Under the pieces are notes generated by a model, which had not been told where the DNA came from, searched no databases, and was given only the letters and a program-made list of their open reading frames with translations. From Catenulispora sp. MAP5-51 (GTDB lineage: Bacteria > Actinomycetota > Actinomycetes > Streptomycetales > Catenulisporaceae), in NCBI RefSeq assembly GCF_041261205.1, contig NZ_JBGCCH010000016.1, positions 1-64,000 on the forward strand: a DNA stretch of 64,000 nt. The letters are read 5' to 3'. The position numbers and the translations under genes were made by a program. Positions 31,622 through 64,000 of this stretch are shown here, in pieces. How positions within the stretch are numbered: position 1 is the first letter of the stretch; each line of letters opens with the position of its first letter.

Positions 31622-32821
31622 TCACCAACCGACCGGCAGGAGCACCGGTCCCCGCACGATCACGCCGAACTGCCACTGCACGGCCTCGCGGCCCTCGGCC
31701 AGGTGCAGGTCCGGGAACCGCGCCAGCAGCGCGGTCATCGACTCCTGCAGCTCCATGCGCGCCAGCGCGGCGCCGATGCAGTGGTGCGGACCGTGCCCGA
31801 ACGCCATGTGCGGGTTCGCCTGGCGCGTGATGTCCAGGCGCTCCGGGTCCTGGAAGACCTCCGGGTCCCGGTTGGCCGCGGCCAGCGCCGGCATCACCGG
31901 GTCGCCGGCGCGCACCACGACGTCGCCGAAGCGGACGTCCTCCAGCGCGTACCGGGCGAACATCGCCGCGGTGTTGATCGGCACGTAGCGCAGCAGCTCC
32001 TCGACCGCGTTGGGCATCAGCTCCGGGCGGGAGCGCAGCAGCGCCAGCTGGTCGGGGTGGTCGGCCAGCAGTGTGAACATGAAGCTGGGCAGCCCGGAGG
32101 AGACGGTCTCCACGCCGCCGGTGAGCAGGCCGGGGCCGGCGATCGCGATCAGCTCGTCCTCGGTCAGCTTGTCGCCGTCGTCGCGGGCGTAGACCAGGGC
32201 GCCGAGCAGGTCGTCGGTCGGCTCCTCGCGGCGCTTGGCGATCAGCCGCGACATGTACTCCCCGAGCGCGCCGCCGATCTCCTCCAGCACGTAGCCGTTC
32301 ATGGTGGAGTCGTTGGTCAGGCCCTCGGTCCACTCCCGGAAGATGTGGTGGTCCGAGAAGGGCACGCCGAGCAGGTCGCAGATCACTGACACCGGCAGCG
32401 GCCGGGCCATGTCCTCGCACAGGTCGGCCGGCTGGCCCTTCTCGACCATCGCGTCGATCAGCCGGGTGCAGCGGGATTTGATGTCGGCGCGCATCTGCTC
32501 GACGCGGCGCGCGGTGAAGGCCTTGTTGACCAGCTTGCGCAGCCGGGTGTGGTCCGGCGGGTCCATGCCCATGATGCCGTCGCCGGTCAGCTCCTTGCGC
32601 AGCCGCGGCTGGTCCAGGCCCTGGGCGATGGAGCGGCTGAACCGGGGGTCGGCCATCACCAGCTTGACGTCGGCGTAGCGGGTGGCCAGCCAGGCCGGCT
32701 CGCCGTAGGGCAGGCGGACCCGGCTCATCGGTTCCTGCTCGCGCAGCGTGGTGTACATCGGGGAGACCTCGACGTCCGTCATGTCGAACGGGTAGTCGCG
32801 GATCCGTTGCTCGGTCGTCAT
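31622..32821 (-). CDS. Cytochrome P450 (starter/PKS operon)
   Basis: This 399-residue soluble bacterial P450 probably hydroxylates or epoxidises the macrolactam after cyclisation; the site cannot be told from sequence. The I-helix oxygen-activation motif reads TGGVETV, the K-helix ExxR is EELLR, and the heme-binding loop is [10 protein letters not shown] with Cys at about 348. No signal peptide or membrane anchor. The ATG at 32821 overlaps the TGA of the mutase large-subunit gene (ATGA), so it belongs to the starter/PKS operon. Redox partners are not encoded nearby. Confidence 0.93.
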
Positions 32822-34158
32822 TCCGCCTTCCCTTCCAAGATCCTTCGTCCTGCCGCACCGGCCGGATGGCCGGCGCCGCGGTCGAGCGCGACCGCGTCGA
32901 ACTTGTCCCGCACATAGCCCAGGACCTTCAGCAGCTCCCCGGAGGTGATCCGGCGGCCGGGACGCACTTCGGCGATCCCGTTGAGCGGGAGCTCGCCGAG
33001 CTCGGACCAGCACAGACGGCCGTTCTCGTCCAGGTAGCTGCGGGCCCGCTTGGCGTTGTCCGGGTGCAAGCAGTACGGGATGTCCAGCAGCCCGCGCTTG
33101 AACGCGCCGATCAGGGCCGCGCCGACGTCGGCGGCGCCGCTGAGCACCTCGGTGACCAGGGCGTAAGCCTCCTGATACACCTGGCTGTCGGTGGGGGCGG
33201 GCGCGGCGGCGGCCAGCGCCTCGGACTCGCTGGACAAAGCACCGTGCCGGTACTCGCGCGCGACGGCGGTCGCGAACTCCAGGGAGTCGATGTTGTCCTG
33301 CACGGTCGGGATCCGGCTGGCCTCGGCGGCGGTCTTGACGATCAGCCGCTCGGAGCCGGTGGCCACAGCGAGGCGGACCGCCTCGGCCATCAGCGCCTGC
33401 GAGCCCCCGACGGTGCGCGGGTAGACGCCCATGTAGGCGTAGATCACGACGTGCCAGCTGGCCTCCGGCAGCAGCTGCCGGCACAGGCTTCGCAGGGCCC
33501 TGACGGCCTCGGCGTCCTGGTCGGCGTTGGTCTGCTGGGCGTAGCTGACCGACAGGGAACGGACTCCCAGGCCGTAGAAGAACAATGCTTCCAGCACGCT
33601 GATGGCGACCAGTTGGCTCGGCGGGCACAGCTGGCCCATCATGCAGCCGCCGAAGGTCTCCAGATGCGGCTGCACGCCGGTGCCGGCCAGCGTCTGCACC
33701 GCCAGCTCGCAGGAGTCCTCCCAGTTGCGCACCGACTCGTCCAACGGGATGCGGCCGTAGGGCAGGCAGTAGGAGACCGGGCCGCCCTCGGTGGCGTGCA
33801 GCCCGACGTCCAGCAGGGCCTGGACGATCGCCAGCGGCCGGGCCGAGCCGTGCCGGACCTGGACCGGGAAGCCGTCCTCGACCAGGCCGTCGAGCATCTT
33901 CAGGGTGACCTCGGCCGGGTAGCTGACGATCGGATAGCCGTTCAGCTCCACGCCCTCGCACAGCGCGCGCCGCACCGATTCCAGGTCGCCGGTGCGGGTG
34001 TAGCTGTCCAGGGTGACCGTGCCGACGGTGTCGGCGTTCGCGTATTTGGTCGCCTCCAGCCCGGCCCGCATCGCCGCCGGGTCGGACATCCCCATCCGCG
34101 GCTGCACCACGAGCACGCCGCCGGCGTGGGCGCGCCGCACGTGGTCACCGAAGTTCAT
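32818..34158 (-). CDS. Glutamate (methylaspartate) mutase large subunit, VinI/MutE-like
   Basis: This 446-residue catalytic subunit belongs to coenzyme-B12 glutamate mutase, which interconverts L-glutamate and (2S,3S)-3-methylaspartate by radical rearrangement. The protein is full length for the E subunit. Family-like stretches include VVQPRMGMSDP near the N-terminus, LNGYPIVSYP, QVRHGSARP, ETFGGCMMGQLCPPSQL and SYAQQTNADQD. It must pair with the B12-binding small subunit encoded just upstream; the two genes overlap by 14 bp, suiting 1:1 synthesis. In vicenistatin the VinH/VinI pair supplies 3-methylaspartate, which becomes the 3-aminoisobutyrate starter. The same use is inferred here from the neighbouring ligase, decarboxylase and acyltransferase. 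RBS GGCAGG precedes ATG 34158. Confidence 0.93.
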   Translation of the reverse strand: MNFGDHVRRAHAGGVLVVQPRMGMSDPAAMRAGLEATKYANADTVGTVTLDSYTRTGDLESVRRALCEGVELNGYPIVSYPAEVTLKMLDGLVEDGFPVQVRHGSARPLAIVQALLDVGLHATEGGPVSYCLPYGRIPLDESVRNWEDSCELAVQTLAGTGVQPHLETFGGCMMGQLCPPSQLVAISVLEALFFYGLGVRSLSVSYAQQTNADQDAEAVRALRSLCRQLLPEASWHVVIYAYMGVYPRTVGGSQALMAEAVRLAVATGSERLIVKTAAEASRIPTVQDNIDSLEFATAVAREYRHGALSSESEALAAAAPAPTDSQVYQEAYALVTEVLSGAADVGAALIGAFKRGLLDIPYCLHPDNAKRARSYLDENGRLCWSELGELPLNGIAEVRPGRRITSGELLKVLGYVRDKFDAVALDRGAGHPAGAAGRRILEGKAE

Positions 34159-34708
34159 GGACCTGCCGCCCGGACAGGCGGCCCAGCATGCCGACGAAGG
34201 CCATGGCGGCCTCGGGCCGGTCGTCGAAGACCGCGTCGAAGCCGGCGGAGAGCAGGTCGTCGATGTGCTCGGCGCTCTCCCCGCCGGTGATGCCGAGCTT
34301 GCCGCCGATCACCACCGGCAGGCCGGCCAGCCCCGCCTCGCCGCGCAGGCTCTCGATCACGCGCAGGCCCTCGTGGTAGCCGTGGCCGTTGACGCTGGAG
34401 AGCACCACCAGGTGCGGGTCGCGCTCGCGGCACTCCTCGAGGAGCATCTCGTCGGGCACGGTCGCGCCGAGGTTGACCACGTCGAAGCCGAGTTCCTCGA
34501 TGAGCAGCTGCAGGAACACCAGGTTCCAGGTGTGCGCGTCGGAGGCCATGCTGCTGACGATCACGGTCCCGCGCGAGCCGGGACGGGCCGGGGCGGCGGA
34601 ACGCTGCGCGGGCAGCGCGGCCGAGCCCTGGGCGGGCAGTGCCGTCGTGTCCTGCGACGCGTCCGGGGCGTCCCGCTCCACGATCCCGTCGGCGGCCGCG
34701 CCGGTCAT
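34145..34708 (-). CDS. Glutamate mutase B12-binding small subunit, VinH/MutS-like
   Basis: This 187-residue protein has a cobalamin-binding Rossmann-like domain from about residue 47. The axial-ligand motif appears as SDAHTWN, with His at about 59. The canonical DxHxxG is changed at its last position (Gly to Asn). Later family segments include LGATVPDEMLLEE, VVLSSVNGHG and IGGKLGITGG. About 45 low-complexity residues (LPAQGSAALPAQRSAAPAR) precede the domain and are extra relative to the usual subunit. ATG 34708 overlaps the decarboxylase TGA, and the end overlaps the large-subunit start. Together with that subunit it forms the mutase making 3-methylaspartate. Confidence 0.9.
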   Translation of the reverse strand: MTGAAADGIVERDAPDASQDTTALPAQGSAALPAQRSAAPARPGSRGTVIVSSMASDAHTWNLVFLQLLIEELGFDVVNLGATVPDEMLLEECRERDPHLVVLSSVNGHGYHEGLRVIESLRGEAGLAGLPVVIGGKLGITGGESAEHIDDLLSAGFDAVFDDRPEAAMAFVGMLGRLSGRQVHELR

Positions 34709-36042
34709 CGGACTTCCACCGCCGCCGCTGCCGGTGCTGCCGGTGCCGCCGGTGCCGCCAGTAGCGCCGGCACCTCGGTCCGGACGGATTCCAGCCGGGT
34801 GGCCGAGACCACCTGTCCGCCGCGCACCACCGCCTCGACAGCGACCGGGCGGCTGAGGAAGCCCTGCAGGCTCGCGCTGACCCCGTAGGCGCCGACGTTC
34901 GGCACGACGATCACGTCGCCGGGCTCCAGCGCGGGCAGCCGCACGTCCCGGCCCAGGCTGTCGCCCGGGGTGCACAGCGGCCCGACCAGGCTGGCCACGC
35001 CTTCGGGTTCGGCGCCGTCGAGCTGCACCGCGGCCGGCAGCAGCCGGCCGAGTCCGGACAGCCCGCCGAGCACGTTGATCCCGGAGTCCAGGATCACGAA
35101 CTTGCTGCCCCGGCTGTCCTTGATGTTGACGACGCTCGCCAACAGGTATCCGCTGCTGCCGACCAGATAGCGGCCGGACTCGACCGCCAGGTGCGGCGTG
35201 CCGGAGCGCCAGCGCGGCAGGTGCAGATCCAGGATCCGCTCCAGCTCGGCGGCCAGCTTCGGGTAGTCGGCACGCTCGCCGGGCACCGCGTAAGGGGAGG
35301 AGAAACCCCCGCCGATGTCCAGGAACTCCAGCGGCAGGCCGACTTCGGCTTCCAGCCGGGCCGCGGCGGTCACCGTCTGCTCGAACTCGCCGACCAGTCC
35401 GTTCTCGTCGACGGCGTTGCTCATGGTGAAGAAGTGCGCGCCGACGATGCGGGTGCCGGGCACCGCCATCAAAGCCGGCATCAGCTCCGGCAGCGTCTCG
35501 CTGTCGATGCCGAACTGCGAGGGCTTGCCCATCATCCGGATGCCGGTGGTGGCGGCCTTGGTGCCGGCGCTGTTGATCCGCAGCAGGCACTCGGCGGTCA
35601 CGCCGTGGCCCAGCGCGGCCTCGCCGACGTGCTGCAAGTCGGTGTAGGACTCGACGGAGAACATGCGCACGCCCAGGGCGATCGCGTGCTCCAGTTCGGC
35701 CGGGGTCTTGCCCGGGCCGGTGTAGAGGCACTCGCCGGCGGTGTACCCGGCGATCAGGGCACTGGCCAACTCCCCGGCCGAGCTGATCTCGGCCCGGCAG
35801 GCGGTACCGGTGCCCTCGCGCAGGGCGCGGGCGAGCTCCGGGTGCGGGTTGGCCTTCAGGGCGTAGAAGATCTCGAAGCCCTCGGGCAGCGAGGCGGCCA
35901 GAGCCTGGCGGGACTCGTCGACTCGGTCGAGGTCGTAGACGTACAGCGGGGTCCCGTAGCGCGCGGCCAGGTCCCGGTAGCGGTCGGCGCGGCTCCGGGT
36001 GGGGTCGGCGGAGTCCCGGTGGCCGTCGGCGAGGCTGTTCAT
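34705..36042 (-). CDS. PLP-dependent decarboxylase (fold type III), VinO-like
   Basis: This 445-residue enzyme is of the diaminopimelate/ornithine/arginine decarboxylase group. The PLP-binding Lys is K63 in YALKANPHPE. The glycine-rich phosphate loop is LDIGGGFSSPY, and the substrate-side Cys loop is VGPLCTPGDSLG. In vicenistatin, VinO removes a carboxyl group from carrier-bound 3-methylaspartate to give 3-aminoisobutyryl-ACP; the gene context supports the same role. The start is ATG 36042, with GAAGGGA 8 bases upstream, overlapping the ligase stop (ATGA). The C-terminus is an Ala/Pro-rich tail (AAPAAPAAPAAAA) from a short DNA repeat. Confidence 0.9.
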   Translation of the reverse strand: MNSLADGHRDSADPTRSRADRYRDLAARYGTPLYVYDLDRVDESRQALAASLPEGFEIFYALKANPHPELARALREGTGTACRAEISSAGELASALIAGYTAGECLYTGPGKTPAELEHAIALGVRMFSVESYTDLQHVGEAALGHGVTAECLLRINSAGTKAATTGIRMMGKPSQFGIDSETLPELMPALMAVPGTRIVGAHFFTMSNAVDENGLVGEFEQTVTAAARLEAEVGLPLEFLDIGGGFSSPYAVPGERADYPKLAAELERILDLHLPRWRSGTPHLAVESGRYLVGSSGYLLASVVNIKDSRGSKFVILDSGINVLGGLSGLGRLLPAAVQLDGAEPEGVASLVGPLCTPGDSLGRDVRLPALEPGDVIVVPNVGAYGVSASLQGFLSRPVAVEAVVRGGQVVSATRLESVRTEVPALLAAPAAPAAPAAAAVEVR

Positions 36043-37547
36043 CGGGCGGTCCCTTCGCCGTTCTCGAGCATCCGGGCCAGCTCGGCGGTGGCGAACTTGC
36101 CGTGCGCGGTCAGCGGGATCTGCTCGACCACCCGGCACAGCGAGGGCACCTTCTGCGGCTCCAGGCGCCGGGCGAGCTCCCGCAGGACGGTGTGCGGCGG
36201 CAGGTCGGCCTCGACGAAGATCGCCAGATCGCGGGTGCCCGCCGGGGGCACCACGGCGGCGGTGCGCACGCCGGGAATGTCCACGGCGGCCGCCTCGATC
36301 TCCAGGGTGCTCATCCGAATGCCTTTGCGTTTGAACATGTCGTCGCGGCGGCCCTGGAAATACAGGTAACCGTCTTCGTCGAGGGATCCGTAATCACCGG
36401 TGTGCAAACGCAGTTCGCCGGTTTCCGGATCGGGGCGGAAAGTCTTGGCGGACAACTCCGGCGCATTCCAGTAGCCCGGCATCACGTGCGGCCCGACGGC
36501 GACGATCTCGCCGGCCTGCCCCACCGGGACCTGGGCGCCGTCCTCGTCCAGGATCAGGACCCTGGTTCCCGGCAGCGGCCGCCCGACCGAGTCCGGCCGG
36601 TGCTCGTCGAGCTCCGGCGGCATGATCGCGATCCGCTTGCACTCGGTCTGCCCGAACTGGCGCACCACCCGCACGCCGCCGAAAGCCTTGCGCAGCTTGT
36701 CGATCGTGGGCTGCGGCAGCGCCGCGCCGGTGTTGGTGAACATGCGCACGCGGTTCTCGACGCCGGCGCCGGTCTCGCGCTCGGCCAGGGTGGCGATCAT
36801 CGCCGCCAGCGAGGGCACGATCGGCACGATGGTGGTCCCGGTCCGGCGGATCAGGTCCAGGATCCGCAGGTCCGACTCGGCGCCGGCGAGCACGATCTCG
36901 GCCCGGGCGTGCACCGTCATCAGGACCTTGTACAGGCCGTAGTCCCAGGAGACCGGGAAGCGGCAGAAGACCACGTCGTCGTCCCGGTAACCCAGGACCG
37001 AGGTCAGCGCCATGGTGGCGAAGGTGATCTGCGCGTGCGGCTCGATGACGCCCTTGGGCTCGGCGGTGCTGCCCGAGGTGTACACCAGCACGGCGACGTC
37101 GGCCGGATCGACCGCGGTCGGCTCGGCCTGGAAACCCTCGCGAGCGGCCTGCTCGATGCCGTCCCACGCGTCGGCCGCGTCGGCGCCGGTGAGCACCAGC
37201 CGCGGCTGCGCGTTCGCGATGACGCTGTCCAGGTGGTACTGCTTCATACCCGGGTTGAGCGGCACGAAGACCGCGCCGCGCCGGGAGGCGCCGAACATCA
37301 GCGCCACCAGTTCGCACGTGGTCTCCCACTGCACGACGACGCGGTCGCCGTGCTGCACCCCCCGCTCCTGCAGCCAGTACTCGGCGGCGCGGCTGTACCG
37401 CGCCAACTCCCGGTAAGTCCACCGGCCGGCGCCATCCCGGACCGCTGGAGAATCAGGGCTCTGCGCCTCGGCCTCGTCCAGAAAGGAATGAACCAGCATG
37501 GTGCGCTTCAGGTAATCGACAGTGTCCAATACCCCGCTCCAAGCCAC
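36039..37547 (-). CDS. AMP-forming beta-amino acid:ACP ligase, VinN-like
   Basis: This 502-residue ANL-superfamily enzyme activates a beta-amino acid as an adenylate and loads it on a carrier protein. Motifs: P-loop YTSGSTAEPKG (about 156-166), FGQTE (about 298-302), LHTGD (about 381-385), GRRDD hinge (about 399-403) and C-terminal catalytic Lys K484 in AHGKF. Asp202 in FPVSWDYGLY and Arg305 in TECKR sit near where, as I recall, VinN reads the beta-amino group and side carboxylate of 3-methylaspartate; I could not align them. The start is uncertain: GTG 37547 gives the longest form, TTG 37529 has a good GGAG site, and ATG 37499 is also possible. It opens a tightly overlapped block running to the mutase, P450 and PKS, after a 139-bp gap. 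Confidence 0.88.
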   Translation of the reverse strand: MAWSGVLDTVDYLKRTMLVHSFLDEAEAQSPDSPAVRDGAGRWTYRELARYSRAAEYWLQERGVQHGDRVVVQWETTCELVALMFGASRRGAVFVPLNPGMKQYHLDSVIANAQPRLVLTGADAADAWDGIEQAAREGFQAEPTAVDPADVAVLVYTSGSTAEPKGVIEPHAQITFATMALTSVLGYRDDDVVFCRFPVSWDYGLYKVLMTVHARAEIVLAGAESDLRILDLIRRTGTTIVPIVPSLAAMIATLAERETGAGVENRVRMFTNTGAALPQPTIDKLRKAFGGVRVVRQFGQTECKRIAIMPPELDEHRPDSVGRPLPGTRVLILDEDGAQVPVGQAGEIVAVGPHVMPGYWNAPELSAKTFRPDPETGELRLHTGDYGSLDEDGYLYFQGRRDDMFKRKGIRMSTLEIEAAAVDIPGVRTAAVVPPAGTRDLAIFVEADLPPHTVLRELARRLEPQKVPSLCRVVEQIPLTAHGKFATAELARMLENGEGTAR

Positions 37548-37686: not shown

Positions 37687-38643
37687 TCAGGCCACGGCGC
37701 CGCGGCGGCGCGGCTGCATCGCCAGGCGCGGGGTGGCGGCCAGCACTTCGAAGTGTTCGGTGGTGCAGGCGACCCGGCCGAACAGGGAGTCGGGGCCGGC
37801 CACACACATCGTGCCGACGTCCATGGATCGCAGAGTGCCGACGACGTCCGGCCACCGCAGGGGCCTGACGAAGCTGTCCAGCAGCATCGTGCGGATCTCC
37901 TCGCCGGTGCGCAGGACGGTGCCGTCCTGGTCGGCCACCACCGGCAGGTGCGGGTCGGCGAACTTCAGCTCGCCGATGACGGTGTCCTCCGCCTTGCGCT
38001 GGAGGGCACCGAAGACCGAGACGTGCATCGGCGGTCGCATCGTGTAGAGGGAGAACCCGCCCAGGGAGCGGATCCGCTCCAGCAGCCAGTCCAGGTTCTG
38101 CTCGCGCAGGGAGACCATGAAGAAGTCGCGGTCGATGTAGCAGGAGATCTCGTGCCACTCCCCGCGCGCGGTGAGCTCGGCGAGGACTTCGGTGAGCTGC
38201 TCCTGCGGGGTGCGCGTGAAGGAGTGCGTGACGACGTCGGTGTACTCGGTCTCGAAGAACTCGTCCTGGACGCGGGCCAGTTCGGCGGTCATCCAGACCG
38301 CGTCCTCGATGTCCAGGGCGCCGCAGTACGCGGTCAGCGTCTTCTCGCCGAAGCTGGGGCCGGCGCACACGTCGGCCTCCACGCCCAGTTCCTGCTCCGC
38401 CCACTGTGCCAGGGCCAGGCAGTTCACCAGGAAGCCGACCTGCGCGGCGGTGCTGTAGTCGGCGTCGTCCTCGCGCATCCGGTCCAGCAGCGGGTAGCCG
38501 AGGCGGCGGCTGGCGGCGGCGGTCAGCTTGCGGGCGAACGGGTTGACCGCCATGAAGCGGCCGACGTCTGCGAACTTGCTGGGGGCCATGCCGGGAAAGA
38601 CCACGGCCTGCCCCTTCGGCTTGTTCACCTTCGGCTCATCCAT
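37687..38643 (-). CDS. Discrete aminoacyl-transferase, VinK-like
   Basis: This 318-residue stand-alone member of the malonyl-CoA:ACP transacylase fold should move a protected aminoacyl starter from a carrier protein to the loading ACP of PKS C, as VinK does. It starts with an FPGMAPSKF stretch. The nucleophile elbow is GPSFGE (Ser97), differing from the GHSxGE of the modular ATs by Pro for His. The partner His is H207 in PPMHVSVFG. ATG 38643 has GAGAAGGACG upstream and lies 14 bp after the aminopeptidase stop. It is too short for a PKS AT with linkers and lacks HAFH or YASH. It could in principle also serve the AT-defective module E, but nothing in the sequence shows that. Confidence 0.87.
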   Translation of the reverse strand: MDEPKVNKPKGQAVVFPGMAPSKFADVGRFMAVNPFARKLTAAASRRLGYPLLDRMREDDADYSTAAQVGFLVNCLALAQWAEQELGVEADVCAGPSFGEKTLTAYCGALDIEDAVWMTAELARVQDEFFETEYTDVVTHSFTRTPQEQLTEVLAELTARGEWHEISCYIDRDFFMVSLREQNLDWLLERIRSLGGFSLYTMRPPMHVSVFGALQRKAEDTVIGELKFADPHLPVVADQDGTVLRTGEEIRTMLLDSFVRPLRWPDVVGTLRSMDVGTMCVAGPDSLFGRVACTTEHFEVLAATPRLAMQPRRRGAVA

Positions 38644-38657
38644 CGGTCGTCCTTCTC

Positions 38658-39548
38658 TCAGTCGAGGTTCTGGAGGAACTCGAGCAGGACCGCCAGGAAG
38701 CGCTCGGGCTCCTCCAGGTTCGGCACGTGGCTCGACTCCTCGAAGACCTCCCAGCGCACGTCGGGGATCAGCTCGAAGTACGGCTGCACGGTCGCCGGGG
38801 TGGCCTCGTCGTGGCGGCCGGTGAGCAGCAGGGTGGGGACGTCGATGGCGGCCAGACAGTCCTCGACGGTGTAGTCCTTGAGCGTGCCGATGACGTGGAA
38901 CTCGCTGGGCCCGTTCATCACCGAGTAGACGGTCGGGTCGTTGGACATCTCCATGTGCGAGGCCCGGTAGTCCCGCGGCCACGGCACGATCCGGCACACG
39001 TGGCGGTCGTTGAAGGCCCGCACGGCCTTGTGGTAGGCGTGCTCGTCGGTGGTCCCGGCCTCCTCGTGGCGCCGGAGCGTGTCGTCGACCCCCGGCGGCA
39101 GCGCGGCCCGCAGGACCTCCATCTCCTTGCGCCACAACGGATAGGACGCCGGCGAGTCGGCGATCACCAGCCCCCGCAGCCCCGGCGGCTGCTCCGCGGC
39201 ATGCCGGGCGGCCAACAGCCCGCCCCAGGAGTGACCGAAGAGCACGTAGTCATCGGTGACGCCGAGCGCACGCAGGAGATTGTCCAGCTCGGCCTGGAAC
39301 AACGGCGGCAGCCAGAAATCAGGACCCTTGTCCGGCAGCCGCGTCGACCCCCCGTTGCCGAGCTGGTCGTAGTGCAGAACCGGGAACCCGAACCGCGCCA
39401 GCTCGGCCAGGTTGCCGAGATAGTCGTGGGTACTGCCGGGCCCACCGTGCGCGACCACCAGAACCGGCCGCCCCGCACCGGGGCTACCGGTCATGCGGTA
39501 CCAGGTCTCGTACTCGCCGAAGCGGATCCGGCCCTTCGCCACGTCCAT
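38658..39548 (-). CDS. Proline-iminopeptidase-like hydrolase, VinJ-like
   Basis: This 296-residue alpha/beta hydrolase shows the oxyanion motif HGGPG (about 34-38), nucleophile Ser107 in GHSWGG, Asp247 in GRHDEATP and His274 in SSHVPNLEEPE. In vicenistatin the equivalent VinJ removes the protecting alanyl group from the finished chain so the free amine can close the macrolactam. I place the start at ATG 39548, behind a GGTGGGGTG site; the open frame continues to 39707, but that extension covers the palindrome at 39618 and looks non-coding. It is the first gene of the starter operon, divergent from the histidine kinase. Confidence 0.87.
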   Translation of the reverse strand: MDVAKGRIRFGEYETWYRMTGSPGAGRPVLVVAHGGPGSTHDYLGNLAELARFGFPVLHYDQLGNGGSTRLPDKGPDFWLPPLFQAELDNLLRALGVTDDYVLFGHSWGGLLAARHAAEQPPGLRGLVIADSPASYPLWRKEMEVLRAALPPGVDDTLRRHEEAGTTDEHAYHKAVRAFNDRHVCRIVPWPRDYRASHMEMSNDPTVYSVMNGPSEFHVIGTLKDYTVEDCLAAIDVPTLLLTGRHDEATPATVQPYFELIPDVRWEVFEESSHVPNLEEPERFLAVLLEFLQNLD

Positions 39549-39886
39549 CACGATCACCCCACCGAAGTCAGCGGCCTGTTCCGCATCCCATGTGTAGCTC
39601 CCGGTACGAGCGCGGAACCAGCCCCTTAGGGGCTGGTCGGGGTGGGGGTTCGTCGGATACTGGGGGGGTCGCGGCCCCGATCCGGCCCGGATCCGGCCCC
39701 TGATCACAGACCCCTACTTCACGGTGAAGAAATCACTACCTCGACCGGGGTGTTTACTCCCCTGACACACGGCCGCCAAGACTGAAGACTGAAGTACGGA
39801 CAGAGAAGATTCACGAGGAGGCGGACTGTGATCCGAGCACGCAGGTACGTCGGCCCCGTGGCCGGCCGGACAGCGGGAGCGCAGCG
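39549..39886. promoter_or_regulatory. Divergent promoter region, starter operon / two-component operon
   Basis: This 338-bp gap separates the aminopeptidase gene (-) from the histidine kinase gene (+) and must hold both promoters. Visible elements are a 19-nt palindrome (39618-39636), a second odd palindrome CTTCACGGTGAAG (39717-39729), repeated GATCCGGCCC units around 39680-39700 and a GACTGAA direct repeat near 39779-39793. Clear promoter hexamers could not be assigned. Confidence 0.5.
39618..39636. promoter_or_regulatory. Perfect 9-1-9 palindrome, candidate operator
   Basis: CCAGCCCCTTAGGGGCTGG has perfect 9-bp arms around a central T, 70 bp upstream of the aminopeptidase start. Its CCCCTTAGGG core recurs in the gap before the ligase. 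The LAL regulator or the NarL-type response regulator in this window are possible binders; this is inference. Confidence 0.45.

Positions 39887-43638: not shown

Positions 43639-43640
<2 letters not shown>
43581..43640 (-). repeat. 10-bp tandem repeat array at the PKS D stop
   Basis: Six decamers in exact 10-bp phase run from the hairpin to the PKS D stop: CAGTCCCGCT, TAGCCCTGCT, TAGCCCTGCT, CAGTCCCGCT, CAGTCCTGCT, TGGTCCTCCT on the plus strand. The minus-strand consensus is about AGCRGGRCTR. The array joins directly to the outer arm of the terminator hairpin. Confidence 0.8.
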
Positions 43641-54322
<10,682 letters not shown>

Positions 54323-54330
<8 letters not shown>

Positions 54331-57300
54331 CTGAAACCCTCGCCGTTCCGCTCGATCCGAGCTCTCTGTCCAGCAGGTTGAACATGTCTTCCGCGGTCGC
54401 GGATTCGAGCACCCGCGCCAGGCCGGGGCCGGCGGGGCCGGTGCCGGGCGTGTCGTTCTCGGCGTCGCCGCCGGCCAGCCGCGCGGCCAAGGCCTGCAAC
54501 CGGGGCCCGAGCCGGGCCCGCTCGGCCTGCTCGGGACTGAGCCCGGCGGCCAGCGCCTCGATCCGGTCCAGTTCCGCGCTCACCGCCGCGACCCCGCCGG
54601 GCCCCCGGTCGGCCAGCTCGCCCTCCAGGAACTCGGCCAGCGCCCGCGGGTTGGCGTGGTCGAACACGACGGTGGCCGGCAGCCGGCACCCGGCGGCGGC
54701 CCCGAGCCGGTTGCGGAAGTCCACCGCCGACACCGAGTCGAAGCCGAGGTCCTTGAAACTGCGGCCGGGCTCGACCGCCCCGGACCCGTCGTGCCCGAGC
54801 ACCAGCGCCGCCTGTTCGCGGACCACGCCGAGCACGATCCGCGAGCGCTCCTGCCCGGACAGGCCGGCGAGCCGCTCTGCGAGGCTCGGGCCGGCGGCCG
54901 GGGCGTCGGCGCCCTCGCCATCGAGTGCCGCGCCGGTCAGGGCTCTGATGGCGGCGGGCAGCTCGCGCAACAACGGCCTCGGACGGGCCGCGGTGTAGAC
55001 CGGCGCGAAGCGGGCCCAGTCGATGTCGGCCACGACCAGGTGGCTCTCGTCGCGGGCCAGGGCGAGCCACAGCTCGTCGAGCGCGCGCCCGGGGTCCATG
55101 GAGGCCATGCCGATGCTCCGCAGGTGCCCGTCGGCCTCGGCGTCGACCATGCCGCCCCCGGCCCAGGTGCCCCAGGCGACGGAGGTGGCGACGGCTCCGC
55201 GCGCCCGGCGGCGTTGCGCCAGCGCGTCGAGGTAGGCGTTGCCGGCGGCGTAGGAGGCGCGACCCGAGGTGCCCCAGACGGCCGCGCCGGAGGCGAACAG
55301 GACGAAGGCCTCCAGCGGGCGGTCACCGAGCAGGCGGTCCAGGTGGTGGGCGCCGGCGACCTTGGCGCGGACGGCACGGGCGAAGTCCTCGGCGGTCAGG
55401 TCCAGGGGCGAGGAGGCCTCGGGGAACTGGCCGGCGGCGTGGAAGACGGCGGTCAGGGGTGGCTTGGGCGCGGCCGGCTGCGGCTTCGAAGCGGCTGCCC
55501 CAGGCTCGGGCTGCGCGCTCGGTGCAAGCTCGGCGAGCAGCGCCGCGACCTGCTCGGCGTCGGCGGTATCGCAGGCCTCGATGGTCACCTCGGCCCCGAG
55601 CGCCGTCAGCTCGGCTTCGAGCTCCGCGACACCGGGTGCGTCGCGTCCGCGCCGACTGGTCAGCACCAGGTGCTCGGCACCGGAGCGGGCCAGGCGCCGC
55701 GCGACGGCCGCACCGATCGCGCCGGTTCCGCCGGTGACCAGCACTGTTCCGCACGGCTGCCAGTCCTCAGTACCCTGATGCGCCTCGGTCGGCACCAAGC
55801 GCCTGGCGTAGGCCCGCGCACCACGGATCGCGACCTGGTCCTCACCATCAAGCCCGGCAAGCACCGCACACAACAGATCGCCCGACTCCGCGCCGAACTC
55901 CGCCGGCACATCCACCATGCCGCCCCAGGCGCCCGGCAGATCCAACCCGAGCACCGTGCCCGCACCCCACAAGGCACCAGCCTCGGGATCGACGTCCTCG
56001 CGCTCGTCGACGGCCACCCCGGACCGGGTCACGCACCAGAACGGCGCACCGATCCCGGCGTCGAGCACCGCTTGCAGCACCGGGATCGTCGCGTTCAAGC
56101 CCACCTGCGAGAGCACGCACGCAGGCTGCTCATCACCGAGCAACTGCGTGATCTGCGCGCTCAGCCCGGCCCGGTCCGCCTCGGCGGCGGCCACCGGAAG
56201 GCGAACGACCTCGGCGCCGTTCTTCTCGAGCGCCACCACCACCGCGTCCGCTTCGTTGTCCCCGGCAACGAGCCAGAGCCCTGACAAAGCAGGCTTCGGC
56301 GGCTCTGTCACCGGCGTCCAGCGCACCTTGTAGCGCCAGGAATCCGTCGGCGCCTCAGTGAGCACCTGCGGCTGCACCTGGTGCTGCGTCCAGAAATGCT
56401 TGTGCTGGAACGGATACGTGGGCAGGTCGACCACCTGGCCGCCCGGGAAGAACGACGTCCAGTCCGGACCGAAGCCACCCACGTACGCCTCGGCCGCGGA
56501 GAGCGCGAACCGGGCCAGGTCGCCGCCCCGGCTGAGCGTGCCGACGACCACGGCTTCGTGGTCGAGCTCGCCGCAGATCTCGCGCAGCCGCGAGGCCAGC
56601 ACCGGATGCGGACTGACCTCGACGAAGGCGCGGAACCCGCGCTCGGCGAGCTCCTTGACGACCGGCGCCGGGTCCGCGCCGCGTCCCAGCGCGGCGAGCC
56701 AGGGCCCGGACCCGGCTTCGGTCTCGTCCCAGTCCAGCAGGCCGCCGAGCGCGGTCGAGTACACCGGCAGCACGCGGTCCGCGGCGGCCGGCGCCGGCTC
56801 GGGCCGGGCCGGCAGGCCGGGTCCGTTCGCCCGCCCCAACGACACCGCCGCGCGCGCTCCGTCGGCCAGCGACAGCAGCCCGGCGACCGTCGCCGCGGCG
56901 ACCTCGCCCTGGCAGTGCCCTGCGACGGCGTCCGGCTCGACACCGTGCGCGCGCCACAGCGCCGCCAGCGCGACCTGGACCGCCCACAGCACCGGATTCG
57001 CCACTTCGAGCAGGTCCATCGACGGCGCGCCCGGTTCCCCGCGCAGCACGTCCACGACCGACCATCCCAGCCGCGGCGCGAGCTCTTCGTCGCACTCCCG
57101 CAGGCGCCGCGCGAAGGCCGGCGAACCGTCCATCAGCCCGGCGGCCATGCCCGGCCACTGCGAGCCCTGGCCGGTGAACACGAACACTGTCTTGCCTACG
57201 ACGTCCGCGTGGCCGACGACGGTTCCGTCCTGCGGGTTTCCGGCGGCCAGGGCGTCCAGCGACTCCAGCAGGTGATCCCGGTCGCGGCCGACGACCACGG

Positions 57301-58897
57301 CCCGGTGCTCGAACACCGACCGGCTCGCGGCCAGCGAGTGGCCGATGTCGGCGAGCGCCAGCTCGGGGCGGGTCCGCAGGTGGCCCGCGAGCCGTCCGGC
57401 CGCATTCGCCAACGCCGCGGGCGTCTTGGCGGCGAGCGCGAAGGGGATCGGCGAGGCTTGCTGCGGCTCGGCGGCCGCACTAACGCCTATTTCTTCGGGC
57501 TCTGATGATGTCGCGCCTTCGATTGCCGCAATTGCCGGAGCCTGCTCCAGGATCACGTGCGCGTTCGTCCCGCTGATCCCGAACGAGGACACCGCGGCCC
57601 GGCGCGGCCGGTCGAGGGCCGGCCAGTCCTCGTTCTCCGCGAGCAGCCGCACCGTGCCGCCGGACCAGTCCACGTGCGGCGTCGGCTCGGCCAGGTGCAG
57701 CGTCCTGGGCAGCACGCCGTGCTCCATGGCCAGCACCATCTTGATCACCTGGGCGACGCCGGCGGCGGCCTGGGAATGCCCGAGGTTGGACTTGATCGAG
57801 CCCAGCCGCAGCGGCTCGGCGCCGGCGCGGCGGCCGTAGACCTCGATCAGCGACTGCGCCTCGATCGGGTCGCCGAGCGTGGTGCCGGTACCGTGCGCGT
57901 CGACGGCGTCCACCTCCGCCGGGGTCAGTCCGGCCGCGGCCAGCGCCGCGCTCAGTACCCTGACCTGCGAGGGGCCGTTCGGCGCGGTGATGCCGTTGCT
58001 GGCGCCGTCCTGGTTCATCGCCGAGCCGCGGATGACCGCGTGGACCCGCAGGCCCCGGCGGCGCGCCTCGGAGAGCCGGGCGAGCACCAGGACCCCGACG
58101 CCCTCGGACCAGGAGGTGCCGTCGGCGTCGGCGGAGAACGCCTTGCACCGGCCGTCCGGCGCCAGTCCGCGCTGCCGGCTGAAGTCGACGAACATCTCCG
58201 GCGTGCCCATCACGGTCACCCCGCCGGCCAGCGCCAGCTCGACCTCGCCGCGCCGCAGCGCCTGGCAGGCCAGGTGGATGGCGACCAGCGAGGAGGAGCA
58301 GGCGGTGTCCAGGGAGATGGCCGGGCCCTCCAGGCCCAGGCTGTACGCCACCTGGCCGGAGACCAGGCTGCCGCCGGGGCTGCCCTGGAGGTAGTCGTGG
58401 TACATCAGTCCGGCGTAGACGCCGGTGTTGCTGCCGTGCAGCGCGAGCGGATCCAGGCCGGAGCGCTCGATCGCCTCCCAGCAGACTTCGAGCAGGATGC
58501 GTTGCTGCGGGTCGGCGCGCCGGGCCTCGTTGGGGCTGATGCCGAAGAACTCGGCGTCGAAGCCCCCGGCCCCGGGCAGGAACCCGCCCTGGCGCACGTA
58601 GGTCTTGCCCTCCTTGCCGGGCTCGGGGTCGTAGAGCGCCTCGGCGTTCCAGCCCCGGTCCTCCGGGAAGCCGCCGATCGCGTCGCCCCCGCGCACGACC
58701 AGATCCCACAGATCCCGCGGCCCGGCGACACCGCCGGGATAGCGGCATCCCATCCCGACGATCGCGATCGGCTCGGCCGCGGCCGCCTCCACCTCCCGCA
58801 GCCGCCGCCTGGTCTGCTGCAGGTCGGCAGTGGCGCGCTTGAGGTAGTCGCGCAGCTTCTCGCCCGCGTCCTGGGTCTCCGTGCTTCGGTCTTCCAT
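54323..58897 (-). CDS. Type I PKS protein E: KS-AT(defective)-KR-ACP module
   Basis: This is a protein of about 1524 residues with a docking helix ([21 protein letters not shown]). The KS looks active: DTACSSS Cys at about 200, HGTGT, SNLGHSQ. The AT begins normally ([11 protein letters not shown], a methylmalonyl-lineage look) but the nucleophile motif is GHCQGE (Cys at about 662). The following block of about 85 residues, including the catalytic His motif, is absent, and sequence resumes at [12 protein letters not shown] before [10 protein letters not shown]. There is no DH. The KR has TGGTGAIG, no LDD Asp, Trp in AAVWGTSG and Tyr at about 1216, so A-type. A Pro/Ala-rich insert ([14 protein letters not shown]) precedes HAAG. 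ACP Ser at about 1388. The C-terminus ([13 protein letters not shown]) fits D. I prefer ATG 58897 (AGAGG six bases upstream); GTG 58927, overlapping the F stop, is the alternative. Confidence 0.93.
56600..57185 (-). other. Degenerate AT domain of PKS E
   Basis: This span codes what is left of the AT. The N-terminal acyltransferase core is recognisable up to [14 protein letters not shown] and [18 protein letters not shown]. It jumps across the VNGP/VVSG and YASH/HAFH region to [12 protein letters not shown] and ends at [13 protein letters not shown]. Only about 94 residues separate GHCQGE from SPHPVL; about 180 is usual. Both Ser and His of the catalytic dyad are missing. The frame is intact. 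Confidence 0.9.
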
Positions 58898-58923: not shown

Positions 58924-61900
58924 TCACTGGACGCCCAACTCCTCGTCGAGCGCCTGGAAGAGCTCATCGTCAGTGGCCTGATCCCAGTCCTTGTCCGGCT
59001 CCTCGCCGCCGGCCGCCGCGACCCCGCCCCGGTCCTGCCACCGACGCAGCAGGCTCTCCAGCCGACTGGCGACGGTCGCCCGCCCGGGCCCGTCCGGATC
59101 GGCCGGATCGACCCCGGCCAGCAACGCCTCCAGCCGGTCGAGCTGCGCGAGCACCGGCGCGGCGGCACTGGCGGCCGCCGGCTCGATCAGACCGCGCAGA
59201 TACCTGGCCAGCGCGACCGGCGTCGGATGGTCGAACACCAAGGTCGCCGGCAGACTCCGCTCGACCAGCGCACCGAGCTGGTTGCGCAACTCGACGGCGG
59301 TCAGCGAGTCGAAGCCGAGCTCGGAGAACGCCCGATCCGCCCGGATCGCACCCCCGGAGGCATGCCCGAGAACCGCGGCGGCCCGACCCGCGACGACCCC
59401 GACGAGGTACTCCTCGCGCTCGCCCTCCGGCACCGCGGCCAGGCTCCGCACGAGGCTGCGTCCGGACTCCGCCGCACGCGCCTTGGGGCGCGCACCGGCC
59501 ACGCCGCGGAGCACGGCGGGGAGCTGGTCGGTACGGGCTCGCAGGGCGGTGAGGTCGAGGCGGAGGGGGGCGAGGAGGGCGGTGGGAGCAGCTGCTGGCG
59601 TGGCGTTGGCGTTGGCCGGTGTGGTGGAGGTGTTGCCGGGTGCGGCGACGTTCAGCACTTTGGCGACGGTCTGCGCGGCGGCGGCCAGCGTGGCGGCGGT
59701 TCCGGTGCGGCCAGACTCAGCACGATCGGCGCCACCGGGTGCGGCGACGTTCAGCACGGCGGCGACGGTCTTCGCGGCAGCGGCCAGAGCGGCGACCGTA
59801 CCGGTCCGGCCAGGCTGGGCAGTCGATGCGTCGGCAGTATCGGTGCCGGTGCCAGCGCTGCTCAGCGCGGCATCGAACAGCGCCAAACCCTCGGCGGCGC
59901 TGATCGGCGGCATCCCCAGACGCCGCAGCCGGCGCGCGCCGGCCTCGTCCAACTCTGCGGCCATGCCGGCGCCGTCCATCGACCAGGCGCCCCAGGCCAG
60001 TGACAGTCCGGGGAGTCCGGCGGTTCGGCGGTGCGCGGCCAGGCCGTCGAGGAATGCGTTCGCCGCAGCGTAGTCGGCCTGGCCGGCGCCGAGGACCAGG
60101 CTCGCGGCCGAGGAGAAGAGGACGAAGGCTGCGAGGTCCAGGTCGGCGGTCAGCTCGTGCAGGTACCAGGCGCCGTCGGCCTTGGGGCGCAACACGGTGT
60201 CGAGGCTCTCCGGTGTCAGCGTCTCGACCAGGCCGGTGCCGACGACACCCGCCGCGTGCACGACGGCGGTCAGCGGGTGTGCGGCCGGGATTCCGGCTAG
60301 CAGCTTGGCGACGGCGTCACGATCGCCGATGTCGCACGCGGCCACCTCGACATATGCCCCGAACTCGGCCAGCTCCGCGCACAGCTCGCGCGCGCCGGCC
60401 GCCTCCAACCCACGACGGCTGGTCAGCAGTAGTCTGCGAACCCCGTGCTCGGTGACCAGATGGCGGCTCAGCAAAGCACCCAGGCCACCGGTACCGCCGG
60501 TGATCAGTACGGTCCCGTCCGGAGCCCAGCGCGCCGGCTCGCCGACCACCTCCGGCGCGCGACGCAGCCGGGGCACCAGCACCTCGCGGCCACGGATCGC
60601 GACCTCGGGCTCGCCGGTGGCCAGGGCGTGGGCGAGCAGGTCAGCGTCTTCGGCGGCGGCGTCATCGGCGGTGACATCAGCAGCGACATCGGCAGCAGCG
60701 TCGATCAGAACAAACCGGCCCGGATTCTCCGCCTCGGCAGCGCGAATCAGACCCCAGACAGCGGCCCCGATCGGCAGCGAGTTGTCCGCGACCACCGCCA
60801 GTCGACCGTCGGAGTCCAGGTGTTCCCGAACGGCCTCAAGCACCTCGGCCAGCACCGAGCGCAGAGTCTGCGGCACATCGCTTCCGGCCTCGGCCGCGAC
60901 ATTCAGGACCCTGGCTTGCGAGCCGGCCGACCCACCAGCCGGCGCCGCCTCCCACTCCACGCGATACAGCAGATCCCCGACTCCGCGGTCGAGCTGCCCC
61001 GCGCTGATCGGACGCGCCACCAGCCCCTGAACCGTCGCCACCGGCAGCCCGGAGCTGTCCGCGAGCGTCACCGACACCGTGTCCGGACCCACCGGGCTGA
61101 TCCGCACCCGCACCGCCCCGACCCCGGACGCCGCGAGCGTGAACCCGTTCCAGGCGAAGGGAACCACCGGCTGCGGCGCAGTGTCGGACACCCCGGATGC
61201 ATCGGCCAGCAGCTGGACGTGCAGCGCCGCGTCGAGCAGCGCCGGGTGCAAGGAGTACGCGGCGGCCTCCGCGAGTGCCGACTCGGGGAGGGCGACCTCG
61301 GCGTAGAGATCCTCGCCGTCACGCCACGCGGCACGCAGACCCCGGAAGGCGGCACCGTACCGGTAGCCCTCCTCGGCCAGCCGCTCGTACCCGCCGTCGA
61401 CCTCGATCGGCACGGCGCCGGACGGCGGCCACCGCACCAGGTCCGGACCAGACCCGGCAGCCTCGACCGGCTCGGCGTCCAGGATTCCGGTGGCATTCCG
61501 AGTCCAGGAACCATCGTCATCGCGGGAGTGGATGCTGAACGACCGCCGACCATCCGCGTCCGGCCCCTCGACACTCACCTGAACCGCAGCACCGCCCGCT
61601 GGCACCACCAGCGGCGCCTCAAGCATCAGCTCCCTGACGGCCTCGCACCCGGTCGCCACCCCGGCCCGCATCGCGAGCTCGACGAAGCCCGTCCCGGGGA
61701 ACAGCACCGTGTCCAGCACCACGTGATCGGCGATCCACGGCTGCGCCGCCGCGGAGACCCGGCCGGACAGCACGACGGCATCCGTGCCGGCCAGCGTGGT
61801 GACGGCCCCCAGCAGCGGATGATCGACCGACTCCAAGCCGAGCGACGCCGGGTCGCTGTGCTCGGTCGCGGGGATCAGCCAGTAGTCCTCGTGCTGGAAC

Positions 61901-64000
61901 GCGTAGGTGGGGAGATCGGGCAGCGAGGTGTCGGCGTCGATATAGAAGGAGTGCCAGTCCACTGTGACGCCGTGAGCGTGCAGCGTGGCCAGCGCGGAGA
62001 CGACCGCACGCTCCTCCGGCTGGTCCTTACGCAACGCCGCGACCGCGACAGCGCCCTCGACATCCACCAGACCGGTCAGCGTCGCCTGCGGCCCGAGCTC
62101 GACGAACCGGGTGACCCCGCCTTCCGCCAGAGCACTGACATCGTCGGCGAACCGCACCGCCTGCCGTACGTGACCGACCCAGTACTCGGGGTCGCACACG
62201 TTCGAGAGCAAAGGGATCTGCGGTGTGTTGTAGGTCAGGCTCTCGGCGACCTTGCGGAAGTCGGCCAGCATCGGATCCATCAGCGCCGAATGGAAGGCAT
62301 GCGAGACCGTCAGCTGCTTGGTCCGCGCGAAACCGGCCGCCACCTTCGCCACAGCCTCCGCCTCACCGGACACCACCACCGAAGCCGGCCCGTTGACCGC
62401 AGCGACATCCACGCCCGGCAGCAGCGCTGCACGCACCTCGGCCTCGGTCGCGGCGATCGAGATCATGGCGCCGCCGGTCGGCAGCGCCTGCATCAGGCGG
62501 CCGCGTGCTTCGACCAGGGTGCAGGCGTCCTCCAGCGACCACACGCCGGCCACATACGCCGCGGCGAGTTCACCGATCGAGTGACCGGCCAGGAAGTCCG
62601 GCCGCACACCCCAGGACTCGAACAGCCGGAACAACGCCACCTCGAACGCGAACAGCGCGCACTGGGTGAAAGCAGTCTGGTTCAGGAGCTCCGGCTCGGA
62701 CCACATGACCTCTCTGAGGGGATGGTCGAAGCCCGCGGACACCTCATCGAGCGCCGAGGCGAACACCGGGAAAGCCTTGTAGAGCTCGGCACCCATGCCG
62801 AGCCTCTGCGAACCCTGGCCGGAGAACAAGAAAGCGGTGCGGCCAGCAGAGGCGACACCGGTCACCATCGGCGCCGACAGCAGCTCATCCCGGTCGGCAC
62901 CAACCACAACAGCACGGTGCTCGAACTGCGTGCGAGTCAGCGCCAAAGCCCGGCCGACAGCAGCCGCATCGAGCTCCGACGCGCCCTCGGCCCAAGCCAG
63001 CAACCGCTCAACCTGCGCGCTCAACGCCTCCGGAGAACGACCAGAAACCGGCCATACGGTGACCGACGTTCGCTGCTCACCATCAAGAGAAGTTGTTGGG
63101 GCGTACTCCCCCGCCTCCTCAATGATCACATGAGCATTCGTCCCGCTGATCCCGAAAGACGAGACCCCCGCCCGCCGCGCCCGCTCCCCCGCCGGCCACG
63201 CGACCGCCTCCGTCAGCAGCCGTACCGCGCCGGCCGTCCAGTCCACGTGCGGCGAGGGCTCGTCCACGTGCAGGGTGCGGGGCAGCTCAGCATGCTGCAT
63301 CGCCAGCACCATCTTGATGATTCCGGCCACGCCCGCGGCGGACTGCGCGTGCCCGAAGTTCGACTTCAGCGACCCCAGCCACAGCGGCCGGTCCGCCGGG
63401 CGGTCGCCGCCGTAGGTCTCCAGCAGGGCCTGGGCCTCGATCGGGTCGCCGAGCGTGGTGCCGGTGCCGTGGCCCTCGACCACGTCCACGTCGGCGGCCG
63501 TCAGCTCGGCGTTGGCCAGGGCGGCGCGGATCACCCGCTGCTGGGCCGGGCCGTTGGGGGCGGTCAGGCCGCTGGAGGCGCCGTCCTGGTTCACCGCGCT
63601 GCCGCGGACCAGGGCCAGGATGCGGCGGCCGTTGCGCACCGCGTCCGACAGCCGCTCGACCACGAGCACGCCGGCGCCCTCTGCCCACGCGGTGCCGTCG
63701 GCGGCTGCGGCGAAAGACTTGCACCGGCCGTCCGGCGACAGGCCGCGCTGCTCGCTGAAGTCGACGAACGTCCCGGGCGTGCCCATCACGGCGACCCCGC
63801 CGACCAGCGCCAGCGAGCACTCCCCGCGCCGCAGCGCCTGGCCCGCCAGGTGCAGCCCGACCAACGAGGAGGAGCACGCCGTGTCCACCGACAGCGACGG
63901 GCCCTCAAGCCCCAGCGTGTACGAGACCCGGCCCGAGACCACGCTCCCGATACACGTGCTGCCGGGATAGTCGTGGTACATCAGCCCGGCGAAGACCCCG
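58924..64000 (-). CDS. Type I PKS protein F (5' end outside window): KS-AT-DH-KR-ACP
   Basis: The frame runs off the right edge, so the docking region, any earlier modules and the first part of the KS are not visible. KS: DTACSSS (Cys codon 63874-63876), HGTGT, SNFGHAQ. AT: GHSIGE (Ser codon 62578-62580), HAFHS (malonyl type), with a short gap ([12 protein letters not shown], lacking the usual LTG segment). [12 protein letters not shown] with Asp for the motif Gly, plus [15 protein letters not shown] and active Tyr, but HAAGVVGTG in place of LDD and no Trp, so stereotype unclear. A 33-residue duplication sits in the KR's C-terminal part. [12 protein letters not shown] (Ser codon 59305-59307). 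The tail [15 protein letters not shown] fits protein E's docking helix. Confidence 0.94.
59641..59812 (-). repeat. 99-bp tandem duplication inside PKS F
   Basis: TGCGGCGACGTTCAGCAC begins at 59641 and again at 59740, with about 73 bp of clear similarity in each unit. In protein it gives [20 protein letters not shown] followed by [20 protein letters not shown]. The copies extend the segment between the KR and the ACP; the domain motifs on either side are intact. Confidence 0.85.

Follow-up and report, generated by a model that had tools for sequence, protein, structure and literature searches.

A conserved lesion in the acyltransferase of a Catenulispora polyketide synthase module, and how the module might be loaded

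How is a module of a polyketide synthase (PKS) supplied with extender units when its own acyltransferase (AT) has been disrupted? The question is raised by PKS E, a single-module protein encoded in a 64,000-nucleotide stretch of Catenulispora sp. MAP5-51 (contig NZ_JBGCCH010000016.1, positions 1 to 64,000; hereafter the window). Its frame on the minus strand is open from Met to stop (Table 1), and Pfam recognizes docking, ketosynthase (KS), AT, ketoreductase (KR) and acyl carrier protein (ACP) domains. As described below, the dead AT of E is real and is conserved. We give a probability of about 0.56 to the reading that E still functions in elongation although its methylmalonyl-type AT has been destroyed, its ACP being loaded with malonate in trans, either by FabD, the housekeeping malonyl-CoA:ACP transacylase, or by the AT of the neighbouring PKS F or PKS D.

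The lesion and its conservation

The first-pass annotation of this DNA had reported that the AT nucleophile Ser is replaced by Cys, and the codon is indeed TGC, giving the motif GHCQGE. It had also reported an in-frame deletion of about 85 residues; the deletion is present and in frame, although slightly smaller. The spacing from GHxxGE to the motif at the end of the AT is 171 residues in E, compared with 244–258 (median 252) in 20 GHSQGE-type ATs and 219–261 in 42 GHS[IV]GE-type ATs, a shortfall of approximately 80 residues (73–87 against the GHSQGE-type set). The best stretch matched by the Pfam AT profile stops at profile position 118, and the genome scan picks the profile up again at 246. 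Likewise Lsd14, the best solved relative by sequence, aligns to E on either side of a jump of some 80 residues. The missing block comprises the VNGP/VVSG stretch and the His of YASH, as had been claimed, and no [YH]A[FS]H motif was found in the E protein. From what is known of AT structure, we take the block to be mainly the small subdomain. On these motifs the E AT is judged to be dead. The remnant falls within the GHSQGE (methylmalonyl-type) clade of an AT tree with support 1.0; the tree took in three of the four known E proteins. Its ancestor therefore probably used methylmalonate.

The deletion is common to four genomes: that of the window, a second Catenulispora (G008, in which the genus search gave a 91% match to E) and two assemblies of Kitasatospora phosalacinea, whose orthologues, found by a scan of genome contigs, are 70–71% identical in the best segment and 75% over the whole length. 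The nucleophile is Cys in both Catenulispora proteins and Gly (GHGPGE) in both from K. phosalacinea, so that neither residue of the Ser–His pair is found in any of the four. Because the deletion is shared in this way, the lesion is neither chance nor artefact; an error of sequencing or assembly can be ruled out, given that the four genomes agree and two belong to another named species. A third genome of the genus (G006) encodes an E-like module (67% over residues 6–692) with an intact methylmalonyl-type AT, carrying GHSQGE and YASH, and with a KR-type region directly after the AT, as judged by reading. A VinK homologue is present in G006, which on the short contigs of this genome may or may not lie in one cluster with the E-like module.

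The rest of the module appears to be intact, in agreement with the first-pass annotation. All four orthologues retain the KS motifs (Cys200 in DTACSSS, HGTGT and NLGH, with both condensation His residues), the KR motifs (TGGTGAIG with the Lys, Ser and Tyr) and the ACP motif GFDS. KS, AT remnant and ACP lie on one polypeptide with docking ends, as in a cis-AT module, and the top matches in a sequence search of the PDB were the cis-AT proteins Lsd14 and 6-deoxyerythronolide B synthase (DEBS). A structure model of the E KS-AT (mean predicted local distance difference test score 78, from an alignment of 13 sequences) has Lsd14 as its best structural match (Z 57.1, root-mean-square deviation 7.4, 765 residues aligned). 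The model would be compatible with a folded AT remnant; it was given no weight, because full-length ATs were among the aligned sequences and a large share of the model is KS.

There is evidence that E occupies a defined place between its neighbours. The window and the 12 kb that follow it contain seven PKS genes (P1, P2, P3, F, E, D and G), all of which are also found in K. phosalacinea G015. By reading, P3, F and E all carry an ELF/DMF-xxLDxEL-like stretch at the C terminus, and F, E and D all carry a YLKRAT motif at the N terminus; the ends of P2 and D are unlike the others and match P3 and G, respectively. These docking ends bear out the earlier suggestion that E fits F and D and, together with gene order, indicate the line P1-P2-P3-F-E-D-G, in which E is module 7 of 11. 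The intact KS, KR and ACP motifs likewise agree with the view that the module has been kept in the line.

Extension or relay, and the possible source of malonate

The main argument that E still extends comes from comparing its domains with those of other modules. Between the window and K. phosalacinea G015, the E AT is 56% identical with a ratio of nonsynonymous to synonymous substitution rates (dN/dS) of 0.65 (bootstrap 0.49–0.85), whereas the 10 intact ATs are 65–81% identical with dN/dS 0.23–0.45. The part 3' of the deletion has changed most (47%, dN/dS 1.27). By contrast, the E KS is 90% identical (other KSs 80–93%), the E KR is 79% identical with dN/dS 0.30 (10 other KRs, 72–86% and 0.13–0.45) and the E ACP is 86% identical (73–86% in the seven others measured). 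With other limits, and in a set lacking three KRs, the E KR gave 77% and 0.32. Between the window and G008 the E AT again has the highest dN/dS (0.26, compared with 0.07–0.23), its identity not being the lowest. Rapid change in the AT alongside a KS and KR in the normal range is suggestive of a module that goes on extending and reducing the chain, with its ACP loaded in trans.

Several observations weigh against this. The bootstrap interval of the E AT shares part of its range with the intervals of a few intact ATs, of which G1 is the highest (0.32–0.60), and the part of the E AT before the deletion is not clearly relaxed (66%, dN/dS 0.34, in the comparison with G015). The E ACP compared with G008 has a dN/dS of 0.38, at the top of the eight ACPs measured, or of 0.15 with other limits. 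When the two K. phosalacinea strains are compared with each other, the E KR has a dN/dS of 0.67 (0.31–1.44), similar to 0.75 (0.46–1.32) for the E AT; in PKS D the same pair gives 0.10 and 0.49 for the KRs and 0.66 (D1) and 0.21 for the intact ATs. The strain pair thus supports neither constraint on the KR nor any special decay of the AT; the KR may be relaxed in the K. phosalacinea lineage, or the numbers may be too few. Finally, a literature search of open-licence PMC papers found no product for these clusters.

The strain pair bears on an option already raised in the first-pass annotation, namely that E passes the chain on unextended. In this reading the KS and ACP of E would relay the chain from F to D, the KR would be left substrate-less and decaying, and the product would be a 24-membered ring. 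An AT that is dead in all four genomes would suit such a relay, as would a KR evolving like the AT within K. phosalacinea, and the standing of this option was raised a little by the latter result. Nevertheless, we consider it unlikely, since a KR without a substrate should have drifted as the AT has, yet over the longer comparison it is kept much as the 10 other KRs are; its catalytic residues are retained in all four orthologues, and the KS keeps both condensation His residues. For other systems, repeated use of one module has been put forward. The sceliphrolactam PKS makes 11 extensions with 10 modules and an iterative module has been invoked (PMC5785472), and the authors of work on irumamycin name iteration of M11 among possible ways to account for a dead AT12 (PMC11672594). 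If F or D were to do the same, E would be a mere relay and the ring would still be 26-membered. This seems improbable here: the docking ends put E between F and D, and its KS is conserved to the same degree as the others.

There remains the question of what would load E under the reading that we prefer. The first-pass annotation had offered the VinK-like enzyme of the cluster, which is the sole discrete acyltransferase found there. It matches the starter-loading VinK family PF21124, however, and VinK-type enzymes supply the loading ACP with the protected starter and serve as a general marker of such clusters (PMC10662134), so that transfer of malonate to E by this enzyme is very doubtful. A PF00698 scan that covered the genome of the window alone found no other discrete AT within the cluster; nor did a dedicated malonyl AT come to light there. 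The only short frame above the PF00698 cut-off in this genome is a FabD-like gene (C5:202706-203908) that adjoins genes identified by reading, and not by family search, as FabH, ACP and FabF.

In the scheme that we favour, an AT that once used methylmalonyl would have been destroyed when the segment was deleted in frame and its nucleophile lost; the KS of E would take the chain from F and condense it with malonate loaded in trans onto the ACP, the KR would reduce the product to the hydroxyl, and the chain would then be handed to D. The loader would most likely be FabD or a malonyl AT of F or D, the two not being separable by this analysis. The K. phosalacinea strain pair and the bootstrap limits weaken the KR argument, and PepC (below) speaks for the scheme; on balance the figure was lowered from 0.60 to 0.56. 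As to the product, ring size with this type of starter is 4 + 2n, so that 11 modules would give a 26-membered ring if E extends and a 24-membered ring if it does not. We infer elongation, loading in trans, a malonate unit and hence the larger ring (4 + 2 x 11). Supply of an AT in trans, among the possibilities named by the first-pass annotation, would be the likeliest consequence of the lesion as judged from sequence.

Precedents and other short acyltransferases

Known systems resemble E in part. In the natural cis-AT line for irumamycin, the AT of M12 has GHG, a Ser to Gly change like that in K. phosalacinea E, and in addition to iteration the authors model the M12 carrier as able to reach AT11; M12, however, is the final module before the thioesterase (TE), its donor AT lies in the preceding module and the available text mentions no AT deletion (PMC11672594). 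PepC of the pepstatin cluster is a PKS module termed truncated-AT, in a cluster shown to work; unlike E, it belongs to a short nonribosomal peptide synthetase–PKS system and lacks a KR, and the extent of the truncation does not appear in the text available (PMC12081711). An engineered case is AT6-null DEBS, in which a dead methylmalonyl AT is rescued in trans by the malonyl-CoA:ACP transacylase (MAT) of Streptomyces coelicolor, giving 2-desmethyl-6-dEB (PMC6164871). AT-null modules of the auroramycin synthase, like E in being part of a macrolactam line with an inactive AT, were rescued by the discrete disorazole AT, but this too was engineered and the trans-AT was foreign (PMC6943886). The sceliphrolactam PKS is also a macrolactam line with a VinJ-like gene and no simple relation of module count to product, but all its ATs are reported intact and it has one module too few (PMC5785472). 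In the trans-AT PKSs for bacillaene and disorazole a separate AT loads the ACP, as proposed for E; those systems have many AT-less modules, served by a discrete AT that is co-expressed with them, and no such AT was found here (PMC11907408). In a Bacillus trans-AT cluster, truncated ATs are viewed as docking sites (PMC5964695). By analogy with the S. coelicolor MAT, irumamycin and PepC, FabD or a neighbouring AT would be enough, and malonate would be the likely unit.

The arrangement is unusual outside dedicated trans-AT systems, as the first-pass annotation had it, but irumamycin M12, PepC and the following cases indicate that it is not unique. The genome of the window contains a second, macrolactam-type PKS cluster with a VinK gene (contig C30; L074/L084), in which the AT of module 3 (54783-55400, minus strand) has a deletion at nearly the same place. 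This AT retains its Ser (GHSYGE); the counterpart in G008 (C22, L078) has GDSCGE, and the two are too close for AT decay to be measured. In the AT tree, E and C30 module 3 belong to one six-member clade (support 0.90), within which an intact AT joins C30 at 0.09. A short-AT profile matched at least 4 of 394 genomes of the class, with full-length matches in three: that of the window, at two places, and G031 (L086) and G176 (L087), of one other genus, in which a similar deletion lies in a KSQ-AT-ACP loading module. Both matches in G177 were partial and were read as intact. Among 396 genomes of the phylum, at least three matched, the match being full-length only in the genome of the window and partial in G110 and G168. 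The two samples overlap, and eight candidates were scored per listed genome.

In the collected loci, a search for short ATs brought up 13 further stretches. Two (L080 and L068) were placed in orthologous lines as modules with GHSIGE and HAFH, two (L037 and L033) were left out and nine were read. Five of the nine were intact (L036, L047, L030, L035 and L029), one had another deletion (L020) and three were short and without the Ser: two with GHDVGE in a Desulfobacteraceae metagenome-assembled genome (MAG) (L044, frames from 11498 and 18025) and one with GHGIGE in an Anammoxibacter MAG (L048, frame from 9982). In L020, from Streptomyces varsoviensis (frame from 9937), the AT has GHSQGL and retains the YASH His.

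The assembly line and its wider meaning

The surrounding genes (Table 1) have the hallmarks of a vicenistatin-type macrolactam with a beta-amino acid starter: a VinK-like AT, an iminopeptidase-family hydrolase, adenylation enzymes, a loading ACP and a terminal TE, the last carried by PKS G, which has two modules. For a possible 3-aminoisobutyrate route by way of glutamate mutase and a decarboxylase, a pyridoxal phosphate (PLP) decarboxylase was found, and the mutase subunits match below the NCBIfam cut-offs. The other 10 extender ATs of the line retain GHS[IV]GE, with the His as HAFH in nine; the exception is the second module of G (G2; L009:452-11806), with GHSVGE and QAVH. In PKS F the dehydratase (DH) has HVVLD instead of HxxxG, alike in G008 and K. 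phosalacinea, and on this motif the domain may be altered. Seven plus-strand matches to Rfam ASpks (8692 to 63438) lie within PKS genes of the opposite strand and probably reflect conserved KS coding sequence, not RNA genes.

Table 1. Features of PKS E and of the surrounding cluster in the window.
Feature	Position	Strand	Remarks
PKS E	54323..58897	minus	1524 aa; single module KS-AT(dead)-KR-ACP between docking ends; translation, Pfam
E KS	57533..58774	minus	Cys-His-His motifs retained; Pfam
E AT remnant	56348..57187	minus	about 80 residues lost; Pfam, alignments, motif spacing
TGC codon	56912..56914	minus	Cys replacing nucleophile Ser (GHCQGE); codon read
In-frame deletion junction	56771..56830	minus	approximate; E residues 690-709; alignments
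E KR	55148..55762	minus	catalytic motifs retained; Pfam, motif check
E ACP	54626..54823	minus	GFDS Ser retained; Pfam, motif check
PKS F	58924..64000 in window, on to ~64488 of contig	minus	KS-AT-DH-KR-ACP; upstream partner of E
PKS D	43639..54330	minus	two modules; downstream partner of E
PKS P1	15382..31575	minus	loading ACP and modules 1-3
PKS P2	9860..15409	minus	one module; start approximate
PKS P3	4192..9828	minus	one module
VinK-like starter acyltransferase	37687..38643	minus	318 aa; GPSFGE
Proline iminopeptidase-family hydrolase	38658..39707	minus	VinJ-like by context
Adenylation enzyme	36039..37547	minus	VinN-like by context
PLP decarboxylase	34705..36138	minus	VinO-like by context
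Methylaspartate mutase E-like subunit	32818..34158	minus	under curated cut-off
Frame with B12-binding mutase S-like subunit	34145..35731	minus	subunit in C-terminal part

Most likely, E works without an AT of its own and has its ACP loaded in trans, which would make it a natural counterpart of what has been engineered; the natural precedents match it in part. A broader view, which we put forward tentatively and consider rather less probable, is that the line records a natural and conserved change of extender unit, in which a methylmalonyl AT was excised and malonate from FabD came to be used, giving a mixed line of cis and housekeeping trans loading. In that view the AT segment would have been lost more than once, as in C30 module 3, the loading modules of the other genus and the Desulfobacteraceae and Anammoxibacter MAGs. 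These proposals lend themselves to testing, as there are four orthologous E genes, a relative with an intact AT and, in the genome of the window, another AT that is damaged. If E does extend with borrowed malonate, then the combination of an AT-null module and loading in trans that PKS engineers have built would also have been made, and kept, by nature, and would show which ACPs and linkers tolerate such loading. It would then follow that, for lines of this kind, a product predicted from AT motifs alone is wrong in its ring size or its methyl pattern.

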